Below are positions 16,643 to 38,181 of a stretch of 38,181 nt of DNA, piece by piece. The stretch is from Sphingobacteriales bacterium (GTDB lineage Bacteria > Bacteroidota > Bacteroidia > CAILMK01 > JAAYUY01): the NCBI GenBank assembly GCA_012517435.1, contig JAAYUY010000123.1, forward strand, positions 1 through 38,181, read 5' to 3'. Under the pieces are notes generated by a model, which saw nothing but the letters and a program-made list of their open reading frames with translations, ran no database searches and was not told where the DNA came from. How positions within the stretch are numbered: the stretch's first letter is position 1; each line of letters begins with the position of its first letter. A program made the translations under genes and the position numbers.

Positions 16643-16650
16643 TACCTTTG
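16643..16650 (+). promoter_or_regulatory. Predicted -7 box for the M1 aminopeptidase gene
   Basis: TACCTTTG matches TANNTTTG exactly, with TTTC 21 bases upstream (16618-16621). The in-frame TTG at 16648 is the end of this box, so the true start is the ATG at 16672, directly preceded by GAAGGA. Confidence 0.5.
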
Positions 16651-16671
16651 TATGAAATTAATTTTGAAGGA

Positions 16672-18996
16672 ATGAAAAAAATTTTATTGGCTGTTGTCAT
16701 TATCCTCCTATCCTATTACAAAGCGCTTTCAGGTGACACAATTGGATATGATGTACTCAGATATAACCTTAAGATTGATTTGAACGACCTTGATTCAAAA
16801 ACTATTATAGCTGTAGCTGAAATTGTTCTGGTAGAAACTGACAAAATAAAAAACAACTTCGTATTTTGGCTGAAAGGACTAACAGTTGACTCCGTATCAG
16901 AAAACAATACATTACTCAGTTTTTCAATTGCAAATGAACTTTTAATCATTCAAAAACAAAGCTCAGGCATCGACACACACAGAATTAAGGTATATTATCA
17001 TGGACAACCCAAGAAAGATTCTTACTGGGGAGGATTTTATTTTAGTTCAAATGATGGTGGATATGCCTATAATATGGGGGTCGCTTTCAATGATGTTCCG
17101 CACAGCTATGGGCGTGTTTGGTTCCCCTGTTCTGAAAGCTTTACGGATAAAGCATTGTTTTCTTTTGAAATTATTACCTCCTCAGATAAAATGGCTGTTT
17201 GTAACGGATTATTAACAGCTGTAACCAATAATTCAGATGGTAACAAAACATGGCATTGGACGCTCAACGAGCCTATCCCCTGCTATCTGGCTTCGGTGGC
17301 GGTAGGGAACTATACCTTGGTTAAATCTGTTCACCAGGGCATTGAGAAAAAAATTGACATCATAAATGCCTGTCTGCCGGCTGATTCTGTTAAACTAAAA
17401 AATTCCTTCCAGCACCTTCCGGATTGTATTAATATTTTTGAAAGGAAATATCTGCCTTATCAGTTTGAGCGTGTTGGATTTGTCTTGGTTCCGTTTACTC
17501 AGGGTGCTATGGAACATGCGACCAATATTGCATTTCCCAAATATGCCGCTGATGGGAGTTTGTCGAATGAAACCCTTATGGCTCATGAGTTTTCGCATCA
17601 TTGGTGGGGCAATTTGCTGACCTGCCAGACACCTGAAGACATGTGGATTAATGAAGGATGGGCCAGGTGGTCAGAGTGGCTTTTTCTTGAGGAAATGTAC
17701 GGAAAAGAAGCCTATCAGCAGGAATACCTGAGCAATCATCGCGAAGTCTTACAATATGCCCACATTCGCGATAAAAAGATCTTGCCCGTAAGTCCGGTTC
17801 CTTCAGATGTAACTTATGGTGCCCACGTTTATGATAAGGGTGGCGATATTGTTCACACTTTGAGAAATTATCTTGGCGATTCCCTGTTTTTTTATTCAAT
17901 TCATAAGATATTGGAAAACAATAAGTTTGGAAATATTAATTCCTCTCAGTTTCGTGATTCGCTGACTAAATATTCCGGCAAAAACATGAATAGTTTTTTT
18001 AACAACTGGGTTTTTGAAAAAGGATTTCCATGTTTCAGAGCAGAGATCAGAAACTATTCCACTAATACTGAAGTAAAAGTATATCAGTTCTTAAGGTTTA
18101 CCGACAGGAAATATACTGAGGTTCCGCTGGAAATTACTTTTTACGGAGATAATATGGAAAAGGCCGTCAGAAATATTGTTTTAAATGAAATGGAAGAGAC
18201 ATTTGACTTTAAACTTCCTTTTGTTCCACAATTTGCGGTTATCAATGAAAACATGAAACTGGCAGAAGCCAAATCACCGGCTAAAATTATCGTTAAAACA
18301 ACAGGTAGCTTCGATATGTCAGATGCTTTACTGACTTTATATGTCAATGATATTCAGGATTCAGCGCTTGTATATGCGGAACATTTATGGGTCGCTCCTG
18401 TTTCATGGCCTACAGCAGTCAGTGGAATCAGGTTCTCAGATTACAGATATTGGAGCTTTAACGGAATTTTCCCTCAACATTTTGATGCTTATGCCCGCAT
18501 TAAATACAATGGCAAAGAAGGCAGCATGACAGGAGACAATTATCTCGACCATACTTTAAATATTATAAATGAAGATAGTCTTGTAGTGCTCTACAGAGAA
18601 AACATCAGTGCGCCATGGAATATTTATCCTGATTATAAAATAATTACCGGAAGTAAAACAGACAAAGTCGGAATGATTGAAATTTATCACCTCAAAAAAG
18701 GAGATTATTGCCTGGGAGTCAGAGATTATCAGCAAAGCATTAAAAAATCAGGACAAGCCAGACCAGTTGAGATTATTCCTTACTGGAAAAATGATGAAAT
18801 AACATTTTCAGTCAGTAATGAACTGCCTTTTGAAAGACTGATTTGCTACGACACATTCGGAAAGGTGATGAAAGATATTCAGATACAACAAAATGAACTA
18901 GTTAAGCTTAATACATCAGAGCTATCTTCCGGTTGTTATTTTTTTAAATTTATTGCCGGAAATGAGGTAATCACACTTAAATCCATCAAACCCTGA
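16672..18996 (+). CDS. Secreted M1-family zinc aminopeptidase with T9SS tail
   Basis: 774 aa. Signal peptide (about 1-21), N-terminal beta domain (about 22-230), catalytic domain (about 230-460) and a C-terminal T9SS type A-like sorting region (last ~65 aa: PFERLICYDTFGKVMKDI, SSGCYFFKFIAGNEVI). The zinc site is complete: H305-E306-F-S-H309 (HEFSHHWWGN) with E328 (NEGW) 18 residues on; the transition-state tyrosine is in HVYDKGG. The exopeptidase motif GxMEN reads GAMEH here, so the residue after the substrate-binding glutamate differs from the usual asparagine. It should cut N-terminal residues from peptides outside the cell or at the surface. It is followed 43 bp later by the ECF sigma gene with no clear promoter between. 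The start was moved from TTG 16648 to ATG 16672. Confidence 0.87.
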   Translation: MKKILLAVVIILLSYYKALSGDTIGYDVLRYNLKIDLNDLDSKTIIAVAEIVLVETDKIKNNFVFWLKGLTVDSVSENNTLLSFSIANELLIIQKQSSGIDTHRIKVYYHGQPKKDSYWGGFYFSSNDGGYAYNMGVAFNDVPHSYGRVWFPCSESFTDKALFSFEIITSSDKMAVCNGLLTAVTNNSDGNKTWHWTLNEPIPCYLASVAVGNYTLVKSVHQGIEKKIDIINACLPADSVKLKNSFQHLPDCINIFERKYLPYQFERVGFVLVPFTQGAMEHATNIAFPKYAADGSLSNETLMAHEFSHHWWGNLLTCQTPEDMWINEGWARWSEWLFLEEMYGKEAYQQEYLSNHREVLQYAHIRDKKILPVSPVPSDVTYGAHVYDKGGDIVHTLRNYLGDSLFFYSIHKILENNKFGNINSSQFRDSLTKYSGKNMNSFFNNWVFEKGFPCFRAEIRNYSTNTEVKVYQFLRFTDRKYTEVPLEITFYGDNMEKAVRNIVLNEMEETFDFKLPFVPQFAVINENMKLAEAKSPAKIIVKTTGSFDMSDALLTLYVNDIQDSALVYAEHLWVAPVSWPTAVSGIRFSDYRYWSFNGIFPQHFDAYARIKYNGKEGSMTGDNYLDHTLNIINEDSLVVLYRENISAPWNIYPDYKIITGSKTDKVGMIEIYHLKKGDYCLGVRDYQQSIKKSGQARPVEIIPYWKNDEITFSVSNELPFERLICYDTFGKVMKDIQIQQNELVKLNTSELSSGCYFFKFIAGNEVITLKSIKP

Positions 18997-19039
18997 AATT
19001 TTCCGAAAGAAAAAATAAAGTTGTTTGTCTGACAAAAGT

Positions 19040-19624
19040 ATGACCGAAAAAGAGTTAATAGAGGGTATTATCAAAGGTGACAAAATTGCTTTAAAATCTT
19101 TTGTTAGTCAATATAAAGACTTGGTTTTCAGGGTTTGTTATTCGGTTGTACAAAATAAAGATGATGCAGATGATCTGGCACAGGAAGTATTTATCAAAGC
19201 TTTTCATCATGCTACAGGTTTCCGGAATGATGCTAAAATTTCGACATGGCTCTACCGGATTGCACTCAATCTCTCTATCAATTTTATCAAAAGTAAAAAG
19301 AAAAAATCGTTTGTCGATTTTGTAGATCATATTATTTTTAAGTCCACAGAACAGGCAAAACCTGAAGTTGAGCAAATGGATTATGAGAATACACAGGAAA
19401 AGAAATACAAAATACTCTACAACAGCATTCAACAACTACCTGTCAATCAGCAGAAAGCATTTTTATTACATCATCAGGAAGGACTCTCCTATTACGAAAT
19501 AGCAGAAGTGATGCAGACCTCCCATGCTGCAGTCGAGTCATTGATACACAGGGCTAAGGTTGGACTGAAACAAAAACTTATTAAGGAATTAAAAAAACAA
19601 AATCTTTTCGAAAGTTATCAGTAA
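19040..19624 (+). CDS. ECF-family RNA polymerase sigma factor
   Basis: 194 aa. Region 2 (about 19-86) has the -10 and core-binding signature DDADDLAQEVFIKAFHH and STWLYRIALNLSINF; a basic KSKKKK follows. Region 4 (about 126-178) has LPVNQQKAFLLHHQEGLSYYEIAEVMQTS followed by VESLIHRAKVGLKQKL, the helix-turn-helix that reads the -35 element. A variable acidic linker joins the two, as in other ECF factors. It is followed at 21 bp by a zinc anti-sigma gene, the standard arrangement for control by sequestration. An upstream TTG at 19025 (adding MSDKS) is possible. A short dyad TTGTCTGACAA just ahead of the ATG may be regulatory. The genes it turns on are not known. Confidence 0.9.
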   Translation: MTEKELIEGIIKGDKIALKSFVSQYKDLVFRVCYSVVQNKDDADDLAQEVFIKAFHHATGFRNDAKISTWLYRIALNLSINFIKSKKKKSFVDFVDHIIFKSTEQAKPEVEQMDYENTQEKKYKILYNSIQQLPVNQQKAFLLHHQEGLSYYEIAEVMQTSHAAVESLIHRAKVGLKQKLIKELKKQNLFESYQ

Positions 19625-19645
19625 CAGATTTGTCAAATTAAAGTT

Positions 19646-20071
19646 ATGAATTGCAGAGAATTTCAGAACATATTATTCAAAGGACTTGATAGTCAGACAG
19701 ATAAAGCATTCTTTCTCCATAAGGAAAAGTGTGAGGGCTGCCGGATTTTGTACGAATTACATCACGAAAATTATACTGATGAAAGTTTACGACAGATTAA
19801 AGCCGATGATTTCTTTTATTCCCGACTTGAAAACAAAATCTCTAAAGGAACTATCAAAACATTTACGTATTCCAGATGGCTTGTGGCTGCTTCAATAATA
19901 CTAATTCTTGCTTTCTCGGGAATTTTAGGTTACATGATTGGAAATCCTTCATCAATTCTTTATTCCACCAAACAAAATAATTCAGTTAAAAGTGTGGATA
20001 ATGAATACTTTAGTCTGGTGTCTCAAAATGATATTTCAGAAAGCTATTTAAAACTTATAAGCAATGAATAG
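19646..20071 (+). CDS. Membrane anti-sigma factor with zinc-binding (ZAS-like) motif
   Basis: 141 aa single-pass inner-membrane protein. The cytoplasmic N-terminus carries H25-x3-C29-x2-C32 (HKEKCEGC), the zinc motif of anti-sigma domains that clamp ECF sigma factors; C3 may supply the fourth ligand. One membrane helix spans about 77-97, and a ~44-residue tail faces the periplasm. It lies directly after the ECF sigma gene and its last 8 bp overlap the start of the Spy/CpxP-like gene, implying coupled translation. The expected role is to hold the sigma factor at the membrane until a periplasmic signal releases it. Confidence 0.82.
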   Translation: MNCREFQNILFKGLDSQTDKAFFLHKEKCEGCRILYELHHENYTDESLRQIKADDFFYSRLENKISKGTIKTFTYSRWLVAASIILILAFSGILGYMIGNPSSILYSTKQNNSVKSVDNEYFSLVSQNDISESYLKLISNE

Positions 20072-32382: not shown

Positions 32383-33225
32383 TTACAAACCCCAGGCTGC
32401 TAAATTTAATTCCCTTTCAACTTTCTCCATGAAGTCTCTATCTGTTTTAAAAAAGAAATCATAAGAGGTGAAACGTTCAAGACTATCTACTGTAATGGCA
32501 AATTCTTTTATGTCCCTTGATGAACCTTCATTTCTAAGTAAAAAAGCAATGGCTTTAATGTCAGGCAATGAAACATCGAGAATAACCTTGAAAAAATAAC
32601 CCGGAATGCTGACCTGATTCAGACCAATTTTACCTGAAATATCTTTAAAAACAGGACCCGTAACTACGATAATACTATCGTTTTCTTTAGCCCAGCTTCT
32701 GACTTTTTCCTCCAGCTTTTTCCAGATTCCCCTGTTAAAAGCAGGTTTCTGGGGGCTGATATTACTCATCAAAAAAGATTCATCCATCGCTGTTTCCGAC
32801 CACTTCATATCGGCTGCAGGAGCCAGATGGCCTCTGTCAAATCCTGAATTTGTGTAGTCTGATGGCAATGCCGATTTCGTTAATATGTTTTTATCTTCCC
32901 TGAAATTGTCCTTTCTGCTTACATTTCCATTAGTTTTTTCCAAAGTATGGAGGTAAATGACCCAGTCTGCCTGTTCATTATCTTCATTATAGCATAAATC
33001 AAAACCGCTGTAACTGACAATCTGATGATTATTTTGCGTAATGACGGGATAAAAATCCTGAATTTTACTATAATAAAACTTATAATTTTGAATATCAGAT
33101 GTTTGCGTATAAATATCCTGATTGTCTGTACTGAAATAAGAAGATTGGCTGCTTTGTTTTCTGAAAAAGTAAGCCAGCATCATTAGTACGAGAAATAAAA
33201 TTGTTACCAGTGCAGCCTGTTTCAT
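32383..33225 (-). CDS. Membrane-anchored DNA/RNA non-specific endonuclease
   Basis: 280 aa from the ATG at 33225. An N-terminal hydrophobic helix (about 5-20) acts as anchor or signal. The nuclease domain (about 60-275) has the beta-beta-alpha-metal site: DRGH with the general base H133 (FDRGHLAPAADM), and the metal-binding asparagine in NISPQKPAFNRGIWKKLE. It should cleave nucleic acid outside the cytoplasm, for nutrient use or defence. An in-frame extension to 33309 adds residues without a proper signal, so the ATG is preferred. It is divergent from the small barrel gene and 68 bp upstream of the PKD-protein gene on the same strand. Confidence 0.87.
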   Translation of the reverse strand: MKQAALVTILFLVLMMLAYFFRKQSSQSSYFSTDNQDIYTQTSDIQNYKFYYSKIQDFYPVITQNNHQIVSYSGFDLCYNEDNEQADWVIYLHTLEKTNGNVSRKDNFREDKNILTKSALPSDYTNSGFDRGHLAPAADMKWSETAMDESFLMSNISPQKPAFNRGIWKKLEEKVRSWAKENDSIIVVTGPVFKDISGKIGLNQVSIPGYFFKVILDVSLPDIKAIAFLLRNEGSSRDIKEFAITVDSLERFTSYDFFFKTDRDFMEKVERELNLAAWGL

Positions 33226-33378
33226 TGATACAAATTTTTCTGCCGTAAAGTTAAGATATTTTAAATGACGTAAATAATGCAAGCTGGTTGATTTAAAAAA
33301 CAAGATCATTGATATTAATTTTACATCAACAGAATGGAATATTTTTTGGAAGAAACCCTGCTTTAATCGATTAAAATT

Positions 33379-33941: not shown

Positions 33942-36900
33942 TCAGTGAAGCAGCACAAAAGCTGCCCAGTAATATGGCGAATATCTGGCGCTCATTTCTT
34001 TCTGAGTTTCGGCAAATGCCTGCCTGACCGTTATTCCTGTAAGCCATTTATTGTAGAACATTTGCATAAACTCTGAGGTTTCTTTGTCGGGCACCTGCCA
34101 TAAACTCATGATAATATATTCAACACCGGCTTTTTTAAATGCTCTTTGCAACCCGTAAACCCCTTCATTTCCTTTAATCTCGCCTAAACCCGTTTCACAG
34201 GCTGAAAGAACTACCAGTTTGGTTTTGCTCAGATCCAATGTGGAAACTTCATAAGCGGTCAATATTCCATCATCAGTTCCCTGTGGCCTGTCTTTTCCAT
34301 GCCAGCTCAGGTTTCCACCGGCAAAAAGTAATCCTGAGCGGAAAAGCGGATTTTCTGCTGATTCAAACATGTTTTCATCGATCTTTGGTTTTGTGCTTTT
34401 ATCAGGAAAGAAAAATCCATGTGTCGCAATATGCATCACATCAGGACTATTTTTTCCGCTCATTTGCTTAAATTTTTCTTCCGTTGCATTTTTACCGGTT
34501 ATCAGATTGATCTGCTTGCCTTTTACCTTTGCAGTCTGTTCTATTTTATTGCTTTCTTCGAGGGTTCCGGGCAGGTAATTCCAGTTTTCACCCCGGCTGT
34601 TTTCTTTGATAGGTATTTGCTCTGATGTGGTTTGGTAAATATTGTCTTTGTCATAAGAGACTTTGCTTTCTGAATAATCACTATTGTAATCAATTCCCCC
34701 ATAGATATTGAAAACATTGACATCAGTACCTTTGAGTCCTTTGGTCTTTTCGTCAGTTAAAAAGCGGGCATTGCTCAAAACATTGAGATTGTATTGCTGG
34801 CAAAGAAATTTCGATTGGTCAGCCGGCAAAGCAGCAAAAGAAATCTGATGTAAAAGCCCGGATGGAACCATGTAGACGGTTTTAATTTCTTTCAGGAATG
34901 GTTGCAATGGTTTCCATAAGTATTTTGCCAGGCTATCGCCCTTAAATCCGCTATACTTAATGGTTTGCGTAGTGGCTCCTGCTCCCCTGCTGGATGTATA
35001 TAACGAATTGACAAACTGATTCTTGTCTTTTGATACATTGCCGATAATGCGTGTTAAGTCAGATTCTTTACACAGATATACTATTTTTGGGGCAGTCATA
35101 TTTTTTGTCAAAACAGCAGCACAATAAATTACCTTCCCTGTCAGATATTGTTCAAATAATTCAAAATTAAGGAATTCTACTAAAGCTTCCCCCTCTGATA
35201 AATTCTCTTTTAAAGATTTCCAGTTAATTTTAGTATTTTCCTGATTAATTCTGAAATCTGCCGAGAGCTGGTAAAGCTGTTTTTCAAGATTATTGGCTTC
35301 TGTTTCCATGTCAACAAGATTTTTATCTCTCTGGTCAATGGGTTTTGCATAATTAACAGCAAGTTCTTTCTTGATATTCAGCCATTTATCGTATATCTCA
35401 TTGAGTTTTTCATCTTTACTATTTTGAATTTTAACACGCATACTTCTTTCCGACCCAAGCAACAACCCGTTCATAAATATCTCATTATCAAGTAAATTTC
35501 CTGCCAACTCAGGTTTAACATCTTTTCGGGTATAATAGAAGGAATTGATGGCTTTGAAATCATTTGCCACGGTCGTCATATAAGCTTCTTTTTCAGTTTC
35601 TGACATAAAACTGATGGTGTTCAGAATCACATCAAACAAGAGCTGATTGGCTTCCACAAATATAGGTTCGGCTTTGTCGGGCTTGTTCATACTGATATAC
35701 AGGTAGGATAAATTATTCAAAATATTGATGTAATCAATGTTCTTTTTTCCGACTTTGCCCTCTGCAATTTTCAGTGCATTCTGGTATTGCGTTTCAGCAA
35801 GGGCATATTTACCCATGCTTTCATAGGAATTGCCAAGATTGGATAATGTTTTGGCATATATCAGGTTGTCTTTCCCAATTGTATTTTGATAAATTGCCAG
35901 GCACTTTTCAAAATATTCTGCTGCTTTTTCCGACTTTCCGATTTCTTCATTTAGCAAACCCAGTTGATATAAACCAGATGCATAATCCTGATGGTTTTCC
36001 CCGTAAAGTTCTTTTCTGATATCGAGTGATTTACTGAAATATTGAGTTGCCATGTCATATTTTGCTTCTGCCAGATAATAATTACCCATATTGTTCAAAG
36101 CTCTCGTATAAAGTTTTTTTTCTGTAAATGCAGGATTTTCAAGAATGGCAATGGCTTTTGTCAGATAGTCAAACGTTTTTTTCAGGTTACCGAGATCATC
36201 ATATAAAGAAGCAAGATTCACCATTGAGCGGGCAATTTCGGGACTGTTTTCTCCATATACCTTTTTTTTCAGGTCGATGCATTCCAGATGTGCAGCTTCT
36301 GATTTATCAAATCTGCCGGTGTTATGAAACAATACAGCCAGATTATTTAGCGTGGTAGTGTAATCCGGTGTTTGTTTCCCGCTCAGGTTCATCCTGATTT
36401 CAAGTGCTTGTAAAAGGTATTTTTCTGCAGTTTCCGTATTTCCTCTTTGTTCATATATCAGTGCCAGGTCGTTGAGCGAAAACGCATATTCAGAGGACTT
36501 TTCACCAAATATACGTTTACGTGTTTCCATGACTTCTTCATAGGTTTTGGTAGCCTGAACAAGCTGCCCCATTTCGGCATACAATCCGGCAAGATTATTC
36601 AGTGCAGATAAATAGTTGGATGACTCTTTTCCCACACTTTTTTCAAAAATTGCAAGTGATTCCTGATAGGTTTTCAGGCTTAAATCGTGTTTACCAGCAT
36701 TTTCATATACCATTGCAAGATTGTTCAGAACGTTGGCATAATTGGCACTGCTGTTACCGTAAACAATTTTCATCAATTCAAGACTTTGATTGAGGTATTT
36801 TTCTGCCTCGGTATAATTGCCGTAAGTGGTGTAAGTCATTCCCAACTGATTGAGTAAATCGGCATAGCCTGCATCATTCTTTTTCCCGGCCTTTTCCCTG

Positions 36901-37568
36901 ATAGCCATGGCTGATTTATAGTAATTGACAGATTTATCATAAGCACCGGCATTTGAGTAGGCATGTGCCAGGTCTTTATACATATTGGCTGTTTTAATAT
37001 CATTTTCTCCAGCCAGACTTTTTATTAGCATGGCTGCCTGTTCGAGAAGGGCAACCGCTTCTGAATAATACCCTGCCAGATCGAGATTTACACCAAGATT
37101 GTTCAGGCTAATCGCATATTCTTCTCCTTTTGTACCGAAGTAGTTTTCACATGCTTTCAGGTTTTGACGATAGTACTCAATGGCTTTGATGAGGTTTCCA
37201 TTCATGCTGTAATAACCACCTACCATTTCAAGCCCGTAAACATAGCTTTCGCTTTTTTCTCCATCTGTCTGCCGGGTCATTTCGAGTGCATCCAGATAAT
37301 ATTTTTCCGCTTCTTTTGAATAATTGTTAAATTCAAGAAACAGCGCCACTGTAAACATGGCTTCTGCGGTTTTGCTATGTTTCTGTCCAAATTCCTTTTG
37401 TGCCTGTTTCAATGCTTTTTGGGCATTTTCCAATGCACCGGCCAAATCTCCCTTGTCGTATAGTGCCCAGGTTTTATCATCCAGTTTTGCATACGACTGT
37501 GCCCCTGAATAAAAAAAACAGCAGCCAATAATGACTGCTGTCAGAATAAAACTTCTTAAAACATTCAT
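33942..37568 (-). CDS. TPR-CHAT protein (caspase-like protease domain)
   Basis: 1208 aa from the ATG at 37568: signal peptide (about 1-22, ending FFYSGAQ), about fifteen 42-residue TPRs (about 20-640) of the kinesin-light-chain type (ALNNLAxLYxxxG, AExYxxALEIR), a helical segment (about 640-880) and a C-terminal CHAT domain (about 900-1208). The caspase-like dyad is present: H1050 (HIATHGFFF) and C1124 (LSACETGLG). The protein ends PYYWAAFVLL, the usual CHAT end. The signal peptide indicates a periplasmic or exported protein, unlike the cytoplasmic CHAT proteases of Craspase or gasdermin systems. It follows by 10 bp the gene whose visible end is a DUF4384 domain, so the two are likely one operon. 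TTG at 37574 is rejected as start. Substrate unknown. Confidence 0.9.
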   Translation of the reverse strand: MNVLRSFILTAVIIGCCFFYSGAQSYAKLDDKTWALYDKGDLAGALENAQKALKQAQKEFGQKHSKTAEAMFTVALFLEFNNYSKEAEKYYLDALEMTRQTDGEKSESYVYGLEMVGGYYSMNGNLIKAIEYYRQNLKACENYFGTKGEEYAISLNNLGVNLDLAGYYSEAVALLEQAAMLIKSLAGENDIKTANMYKDLAHAYSNAGAYDKSVNYYKSAMAIREKAGKKNDAGYADLLNQLGMTYTTYGNYTEAEKYLNQSLELMKIVYGNSSANYANVLNNLAMVYENAGKHDLSLKTYQESLAIFEKSVGKESSNYLSALNNLAGLYAEMGQLVQATKTYEEVMETRKRIFGEKSSEYAFSLNDLALIYEQRGNTETAEKYLLQALEIRMNLSGKQTPDYTTTLNNLAVLFHNTGRFDKSEAAHLECIDLKKKVYGENSPEIARSMVNLASLYDDLGNLKKTFDYLTKAIAILENPAFTEKKLYTRALNNMGNYYLAEAKYDMATQYFSKSLDIRKELYGENHQDYASGLYQLGLLNEEIGKSEKAAEYFEKCLAIYQNTIGKDNLIYAKTLSNLGNSYESMGKYALAETQYQNALKIAEGKVGKKNIDYINILNNLSYLYISMNKPDKAEPIFVEANQLLFDVILNTISFMSETEKEAYMTTVANDFKAINSFYYTRKDVKPELAGNLLDNEIFMNGLLLGSERSMRVKIQNSKDEKLNEIYDKWLNIKKELAVNYAKPIDQRDKNLVDMETEANNLEKQLYQLSADFRINQENTKINWKSLKENLSEGEALVEFLNFELFEQYLTGKVIYCAAVLTKNMTAPKIVYLCKESDLTRIIGNVSKDKNQFVNSLYTSSRGAGATTQTIKYSGFKGDSLAKYLWKPLQPFLKEIKTVYMVPSGLLHQISFAALPADQSKFLCQQYNLNVLSNARFLTDEKTKGLKGTDVNVFNIYGGIDYNSDYSESKVSYDKDNIYQTTSEQIPIKENSRGENWNYLPGTLEESNKIEQTAKVKGKQINLITGKNATEEKFKQMSGKNSPDVMHIATHGFFFPDKSTKPKIDENMFESAENPLFRSGLLFAGGNLSWHGKDRPQGTDDGILTAYEVSTLDLSKTKLVVLSACETGLGEIKGNEGVYGLQRAFKKAGVEYIIMSLWQVPDKETSEFMQMFYNKWLTGITVRQAFAETQKEMSARYSPYYWAAFVLLH

Positions 37569-37578
37569 AATCAATATT

Positions 37579-38181
37579 TTATTTTTCTATCTTAAAAACA
37601 ATAGTATAGGTGTTGGCAGAGCCTGCCGGAACGGTTGAAACACCGCTACCGCGTGTATTTCCATAACTATTGGCAAGCAATTGCTCCAATGGATTCATAT
37701 TTCCTCTTGTGCCTGTTCCCTTGTTTAATACAATGGGTTCAAGGTTGATAGGATCCTGAGAGGCAATCAGCTTAAATACCTCTGTGCCAGTCGGGGGAAA
37801 AATGTCAAATACATAATCAAGTTCAATGCTTTCGCCAGGCATGATTCTGAATTCAGTGTTCGGAATTCTGACCTGACGTACATTATCATAAACAGGTATC
37901 AGCAGATTGACCACATTGTCAGGCTGAATGTCAATTAAGGCATAATAAGCTGGTTTGCTGCCCTTATTGGTGATTTTCAGCTTAAAATGATCTCCGTCTT
38001 TAAAAACAATCGTGTTGTTGTTATCGCGCTTGCTGTCTATGGAAAGTTTTTCTTTGACCGTTCCATCGGCATTGACGGTTACCGGAATGAATTCAAATTC
38101 AACATTATAATTTTCAGCAACCATTTCAAGGTTTCTGAGAAAATTACCCTGAGCATAAGCTTTGATAAGCTCTGTGACATC
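37579..38181 (-). CDS. Partial gene ending in a DUF4384 domain (5' end outside window)
   Basis: Only the last ~200 codons are present; the frame stays open through 38181 and the start lies beyond the window edge (an internal ATG at 38122-38124 is not taken as the start). The visible part begins DVTELIKAYAQGNFLRNLEM, then a beta-rich DUF4384 domain (FKDGDHFKLKITNKGSKPAYY, NLLIPVYDN, PTGTEVFKLIASQDP), then a Gly/Asn/Ser-rich stretch and the end NTYTIVFKIEK. DUF4384 commonly sits behind caspase-family (peptidase C14), kinase or TPR domains; with a CHAT gene 10 bp downstream a caspase-like N-terminus is plausible but cannot be seen here. Confidence 0.75.
   Translation of the reverse strand, partial: DVTELIKAYAQGNFLRNLEMVAENYNVEFEFIPVTVNADGTVKEKLSIDSKRDNNNTIVFKDGDHFKLKITNKGSKPAYYALIDIQPDNVVNLLIPVYDNVRQVRIPNTEFRIMPGESIELDYVFDIFPPTGTEVFKLIASQDPINLEPIVLNKGTGTRGNMNPLEQLLANSYGNTRGSGVSTVPAGSANTYTIVFKIEK

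Follow-up and report, generated by a model that had tools for sequence, protein, structure and literature searches.

The question raised by contig JAAYUY010000123.1 (here C123) of a Sphingobacteriales bacterium (assembly GCA_012517435.1) concerns two genes at its right end, one for a protein with tetratricopeptide repeats (TPRs) and a CHAT protease domain and the other for a product ending in DUF4384, which an initial annotation had paired as a possible envelope-located clan CD protease pathway rather than a cytoplasmic death switch. The window analysed is this entire contig of 38,181 nt, and the DUF4384 gene is therefore cut at the contig end. Once that gene is completed, the pair appears as part of a larger operon, and the locus probably encodes a sigma-linked cascade of exported proteases, headed by a metacaspase of predicted Arg specificity that would cut itself and its partners at [ST]R/G (a slash marks a predicted cut), in an order and upon a trigger that are proposed below.

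The caspase-DUF4384 protein, the TPR-CHAT protease and their operon

The right end of the window (38041..38181) matches the start of contig C207 from the same genome exactly over 141 bp, and a Peptidase_C14 search of this genome returned a caspase gene truncated at the beginning of C207. The overlap is probably of the sort left between neighbouring contigs by a k-mer assembler, and the joined reading frame stays open across it, with a layout that complete orthologues elsewhere share. The 3' part of the gene in the window (37579..38181, minus strand, 200 codons) continues on C207 (L078:1-1563, minus) to a total of 674 amino acids (aa), in which a signal peptide is followed by a caspase domain (H109, C177), a long beta-rich region and the DUF4384 domain (37750..38004, minus strand; E=1.8e-10). 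Extending the gene to the right and scanning it with Pfam revealed a peptidase domain (Peptidase_C14, PF00656, E=5e-23), so that the gene noted for its DUF4384, a domain that often follows caspase-like proteases, turned out to encode a predicted secreted metacaspase.

The p20 fold of Peptidase_C14 with a His-Cys dyad places this protein among the metacaspases/orthocaspases, and its nearest solved structures are metacaspases by both sequence and fold, a Foldseek search having matched metacaspases and 3bij with E-values of 1e-13 to 1e-9. H109, C177 and D175 are invariant in 91 of 91 caspase sequences, and D56 in 90 of 90. D56 and D175 align with the acidic-pocket positions of metacaspases, which we take, from the structures of TbMCA2 and other metacaspases, to be S1-pocket residues for Arg or Lys, and this conserved acidic S1 pocket suggests that the caspase is Arg-specific. 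Orthocaspases are reported to cut after basic residues (PMC6426788). Three more Peptidase_C14 proteins are encoded in the same genome (G000:C163, C137 and C239; L075-L077), with a single [ST]RG among them.

Next to the caspase gene lies the gene for the TPR-CHAT protease (33942..37574, minus strand), whose product has 1210 aa when read from a TTG codon and 1208 aa from the third-codon ATG at 37568. It is assigned to the CHAT proteases by a match to PF12770 (E=2e-60; residues 880-1208, 33951..34937) together with an intact dyad, His1052 (codon 34419-34421) and Cys1126 (codon 34197-34199) in the TTG numbering, which are the H1050 and C1124 that the initial annotation had named from the ATG. The distance of 10 bp from the stop of the DUF4384 gene was also correct for the ATG, and it shortens to 4 bp from the TTG. 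The TPR region, composed of kinesin-light-chain type repeats, extends over about residues 33-640 (35655..37478; TPR_12 in 10 stretches), all of these features being on the minus strand, and it may offer the large surface for binding a partner that the initial annotation suggested. The signal peptide noticed earlier on this protein is credible, as the leader (37500..37574, minus strand) has a predicted cleavage at SGA/QS that obeys the Bacteroidetes signal-peptide Q-rule (PMC5837995), and a leader of the same type is found on the caspase. No type IX sorting tail is seen on the TPR-CHAT protein, which ends with its CHAT domain, and the periplasm is therefore its likeliest location. The leader contains the sequence IIGC, and a lipoprotein was considered and set aside, as the Q-rule site fits and four other leaders share such a site.

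These two genes close a co-directional operon in which the order is extracytoplasmic function (ECF) sigma factor, TPR anti-sigma factor, TPR protein, 143-aa secreted protein, HtrA-like protease, caspase-DUF4384 and TPR-CHAT, with spacings from a 10-bp overlap, between the HtrA-like protease gene and the caspase gene, to 81 bp. The genes beyond that overlap, from the HtrA-like protease through the 143-aa secreted protein, the 186-aa TPR protein and the anti-sigma to the ECF sigma, occupy L078:1554-5641 (minus). Catalytic residues are intact in all three operon proteases. The serine protease (PF13365, E=6e-31; trypsin-like triad of H91, S202 and the candidate D125) scores below the cut-offs for full-length Do (TIGR02037, 163 bits vs 416) and for DegS (132 vs 423 bits), and by these profile scores it is best described as HtrA-like and filed as neither DegP nor DegS. 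The 143-aa small protein matched no Pfam family, and a fold search gave only weak beta-sandwich matches (best E=0.004). The sigma reaches 40.0 bits in the sigma70-ECF model, for which the cut-off is 42.9, and anti-sigma models match weakly; the gene order, the transmembrane segment and homology to other sigma/anti-sigma pairs are consistent with an ECF sigma and its membrane anti-sigma, the latter having 287 aa with a cytoplasmic domain, the transmembrane segment and a C-terminal TPR domain.

Signal peptides, judged by the simple Q-rule pattern (A or S, then Q, after a hydrophobic leader) and not by SignalP, are present with A/Q or S/Q on five of five effectors, which are the products of the last five consecutive operon genes, and the effectors are thus predicted to be exported. 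These five leaders, together with the metacaspase, favour the envelope-located pathway that had been proposed, with the refinement that it comprises more than a pair, as the ECF sigma, the anti-sigma, the HtrA-like protease and two small exported proteins are included, and that the partner of the caspase is not always a CHAT protein. The same evidence makes it very unlikely that the locus is a cytoplasmic conflict (abortive-infection) system like those known from multicellular prokaryotes, in which caspase, CHAT and trypsin proteins would act as a death switch. The protease folds are the same in such systems, and the operon caspase is weakly similar to the EACC1-associated caspase model and to a PADLOC caspase; however, it scores only 34.8 bits in the former (NCBIfam NF047832), where the cut-off is 140 bits, all effector proteins have predicted signal peptides, and the operon holds no NTPase, effector-associated domain (EAD), TIR or nucleotide-signal gene. 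PADLOC returned general matches only.

Neighbourhood of the caspase gene in other genomes

Close relatives of the caspase protein occur in about 20 of 395 genomes of the class. When 84,980 species genomes were scanned with the caspase as query, 562 relatives were found, of which the best 80 were used and combined with the first set to give 95 unique caspase-DUF4384 genes; the 80 loci were ranked by similarity to a single query and thus do not form a random sample, and the domain assignments in the 95 neighbourhoods rely on profiles built in this analysis. CHAT was the immediate neighbour of caspase-DUF4384 in 17 of the 95 unique cases, and another Peptidase_C14 protein in 21 further loci, so that the pairing of CHAT and DUF4384 recurs in other Bacteroidota and is not confined to one genome. 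A second clan CD protease was encoded near the caspase in 39 of the 67 loci for which each flank extended 4 kb or more.

Chance neighbourhood would fit the highly variable gene content around the caspase and the 10 of 67 full-flank loci in which none of the partners was present, and this explanation is hardly credible, as it is contradicted by the way in which gene density changes with distance from the caspase. CHAT genes number 0.050 per kb in the nearest 2.5 kb, vs 0.004-0.015 farther out, and other C14 genes 0.072 per kb, vs about 0.028 farther out, while genes for the HtrA-like protease and the small protein are nearly restricted to this distance. Same-strand gaps next to the caspase are also short in many lineages.

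In two genomes of the same family a TPR-caspase occupies the CHAT position, and at other loci it is filled by caspase-TPR or WD40-caspase proteins, which indicates that the slot is conserved and its occupant exchangeable. The TPR-CHAT proteins closest by overall sequence (L033-L072) have no caspase at their loci; a search with CHAT alone therefore misses the system, whereas one with the caspase finds it. For two genomes (G002 and G003), the contigs at the sigma/anti-sigma end do not overlap, and the link there is consistent but not demonstrated. Caspase relatives are found in cultivated strains, including Leeuwenhoekiella blandensis, Winogradskyella sp. KYW1333 and Lutibacter agarilyticus.

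Other gene families were observed near the caspase. An exported family of about 470-540 aa with no Pfam match is present at 21 loci (L180:8444-9964, L147:12023-13570 and 19 more), often with [ST]RG at about residues 125 and 232; exported trypsin-like proteases are present at L162:11946-13490, where the protein ends in ankyrin repeats, and at 11 more loci; and CHASE2-domain membrane proteins are present at L129:11998-13194 and 6 more loci, several being followed by a protein of about 265 aa with which they may form a sensor pair. A second CHAT gene of the source genome (L002/L052, G000:C69:1-3100; 568 aa visible, C-terminal transmembrane segment) is convergent to a TPR anti-sigma/ECF sigma pair, and similar arrangements occur at L064, L066, L067 and L068. 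At L213 (G000:C15), L214 (G003) and L215 (G002), an ECF sigma is followed by an anti-sigma with PKD-like repeats in its periplasmic part and adjoins a divergent secreted-protein gene, an arrangement kept in three genomes of the family. Elsewhere in the window, a DNA/RNA non-specific endonuclease with an N-terminal hydrophobic segment (32383-33309, minus strand; PF01223, E=7e-53) is encoded near the CHAT gene, and the gene for an M1 peptidase that ends in a type IX secretion tail precedes those for an ECF sigma and for a 141-aa protein, maybe its anti-sigma (16648-20071, plus strand).

The [ST]RG motif and its likely reader

The proteins encoded at these loci share the tripeptide [ST]RG well beyond what their composition predicts, with observed over expected counts of 35/1.2 in the small protein, 26/3.7 in a 515-aa secreted partner of other loci, 23/6.3 in CHAT and 36/10.1 in partner caspases, and with an excess in the caspase itself too. 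Counts in other neighbours were 54/63.7 and 38/28.7, and control motifs remained near 1. Once close homologues had been removed, no other tripeptide among the 400 of the form [ST]XY was, like [ST]RG, significantly enriched in four of five unrelated partner families. The motif was present in 20 of 26 caspase-linked CHATs and in 7 of 38 unlinked ones (Fisher p=6e-6), and when linked CHATs were matched with their nearest unlinked relatives the discordance was 16 to 0 (p=3e-5), a pairing that lessens, but does not abolish, the effect of shared ancestry. Raw p-values for the motif are optimistic because members of a family are related, and more trust can be placed in the matched pairs and in the comparison across families.

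The motif stands at borders between domains or in disordered loops, the places being after the caspase Cys, in the caspase C-terminal tail, in the linker of the small protein, at the edge of CHAT and in the anti-sigma linker. In the caspase, R184 and R190 are 7 and 13 residues past the catalytic Cys, a position that agrees with the loop where enzymes of the caspase type undergo processing. Toward the C-terminus, T-R-G surrounds R633 (37702..37710, minus strand) and R651 (37648..37656, minus strand), the latter Arg being kept in 90 of 91 sequences and located at a disordered segment. In the caspase model, which like that of the small protein was made after the motif had been counted, the segments with pLDDT <50 are 178-182, 206-225 and 652-658, which contain R182, R223 and R652, the counterparts of R184, R221 and R651 in the caspase studied here. 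R67-G68 is invariant in 21 small proteins and, in the structure model, marks the end of the linker, directly ahead of a beta domain that is predicted well. The TPR-CHAT protease has one predicted cleavage site at the N-terminal border of CHAT (S-R-G, residues 862-864, 34983..34991) and a predicted second one in a loop inside it (residues 993-995, 34590..34598), both on the minus strand. In S1 proteases of other loci, [ST]RG or the similar R-x-[VI]-[FY]-G is located close to the N-terminus of the mature protein, in the manner of zymogens. The SRG of the anti-sigma linker is kept in the same column in three of three family members, two of them orthologues fetched later, at 33-35% identity; two other anti-sigmas aligned with them have no SRG in that column.

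Because it is common to all loci, because the small-protein sites are kept where no other protease is recognised and because its pocket is acidic, the caspase is the likeliest reader of [ST]R/G. It is unlikely, though less so than the other alternatives considered here, that the exported protease set is real and the motif is instead cut by a co-encoded S1 protease or by CHAT, or is a binding or sorting tag. Cleavage by the caspase is predicted, and some loci also encode trypsin-like proteases that may prefer Arg; against another enzyme, the sites of the small protein persist even where no protease but the caspase is recognised at the locus, and 90 of 91 sequences keep the caspase self-sites. 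HtrA-type enzymes also fit poorly, since their cuts usually follow small hydrophobic residues, and a sorting tag need not sit in both a catalytic loop and domain borders. Ordinary secreted degradative or housekeeping proteases, which would serve nutrition or the quality control of the envelope and would not act as a cascade, would account for the HtrA-like protease, which is typical of such control, and for the many proteases that Bacteroidota secrete. The motif statistics conserved across partners, the anti-sigma link, the large TPR/WD40 scaffolds and the lack of a type IX sorting tail on CHAT make this improbable, if slightly less so than the cytoplasmic conflict system.

Several points weigh against a caspase-led cascade. 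Cleavage at [ST]R/G is itself a prediction, the motif was spotted before it was counted, and the family sequences are not independent. Not all operon proteins can be regarded as substrates, since [ST]RG is missing from the sigma, from the TPR protein and from the HtrA-like protease. SRG was present in two of nine anti-sigmas near caspase genes, so a feedback loop is at most a local feature, and enrichment in anti-sigmas as a class was not significant (2 vs 0.7 expected). A sigma gene was encoded near the caspase in 11 of 67 loci, and the operon from sigma to CHAT in the source genome depends on the C123-C207 join, which we infer from the overlap.

The proposed cascade and its relation to known systems

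In the proposed cascade, the ECF sigma would drive production of the set and the effector proteins would be exported. A signal, most plausibly envelope damage or attack, would activate the caspase, which would process itself at [ST]R/G both in the loop that follows the catalytic Cys and in the C-terminal tail, and would then cut its partners at the same motif, freeing the beta domain of the 143-aa protein and separating CHAT from its TPR scaffold or activating it. The TPR scaffold, or the TPR/WD40 scaffold of an alternative second caspase, may sense or recruit. In this family, the caspase would also cut the anti-sigma between its transmembrane segment and TPR domain, which in turn would free the sigma and amplify the operon in a positive feedback. 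The partners would be clipped and activated outside the cytoplasm in a manner that recalls animal caspases or clotting proteases.

A bolder proposal, put forward tentatively, is that Bacteroidota possess a true extracytoplasmic caspase cascade, with one Arg-specific initiator metacaspase, a common [ST]R/G in unrelated zymogen-like partners, a swappable executioner slot and transcriptional feedback. Those partners would be CHAT, second caspases, S1 proteases, the small protein with its beta domain and, within a single family, also the anti-sigma in control of the operon. If this is true, its logic would be comparable to that of animal caspase or complement cascades, but in a bacterial envelope. 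Bacterial caspase relatives are widespread and their substrates are mostly unknown, and the best-known CHAT/caspase systems are cytoplasmic; the cassette offers three types of protease, predicted to be exported and to share a cut site, along with candidate substrates and a control gene, and the occurrence of relatives in cultivated strains makes the substrate question directly testable.

Multi-metacaspase operons in Bacteroidetes and their sigma-factor neighbours were catalogued in 2012 (PMC3501461), in a paper from which the words CHAT and trypsin are absent, and alphaproteobacterial proteins with DUF4384 and with trypsin and caspase folds in one chain have been described (PMC6426788); the available parts of these two sources mention no exported cascade or shared motif. 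Likewise, no description of the cassette or motif was found in open-access papers, a body from which subscription journals are mostly missing. The fold, the His-Cys dyad and the acidic pocket are shared with metacaspases and orthocaspases (Yca1 4f6o, AtMC4 6w8s, AtMC9 9n3d, TbMCA2 4afp and bacterial GSU0716 3bij), whereas the caspase described here is predicted to be exported, is fused to a long beta-rich part with DUF4384, has several conserved [ST]RG sites and is encoded in an operon with CHAT and HtrA-like proteases. The EACC1/EAD caspase-trypsin-CHAT conflict systems, in which effectors are coupled to NTPases, EADs and sensors (PMC7159879, PMC8195603, PMC10907252), have the same kinds of effectors, but here these are predicted to be exported and sigma-linked, and the caspase lies below the cut-off of that family.

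A parallel in logic is Craspase, the type III-E CRISPR system of Cas7-11, TPR-CHAT Csx29, Csx30 and CASP-sigma, in which the TPR-CHAT protease acts on an ECF sigma inhibitor (PMC10028731), and for which its authors named DegS-RseA-sigmaE of E. coli as a parallel (PMC10028731). As in the latter, there is an HtrA-like protease, here predicted to be periplasmic, and an ECF sigma with a probable membrane anti-sigma; in contrast, clan CD proteases are central here, and the HtrA-like enzyme is below the DegS cut-off. As in Craspase, a TPR-CHAT protease is encoded together with a probable pair of ECF sigma and sigma inhibitor, the latter being the substrate in Craspase, but the operon described here has predicted exported proteins, a caspase as the proposed first enzyme and a membrane TPR anti-sigma. 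No Cas7-11 or Cas-like product was found by reading and Pfam in the operon or its near neighbours, the range covered by the scan. The cassette resembles both systems in logic and is filed under neither, and it connects clan CD proteolysis with control by an ECF sigma in a setting other than CRISPR.

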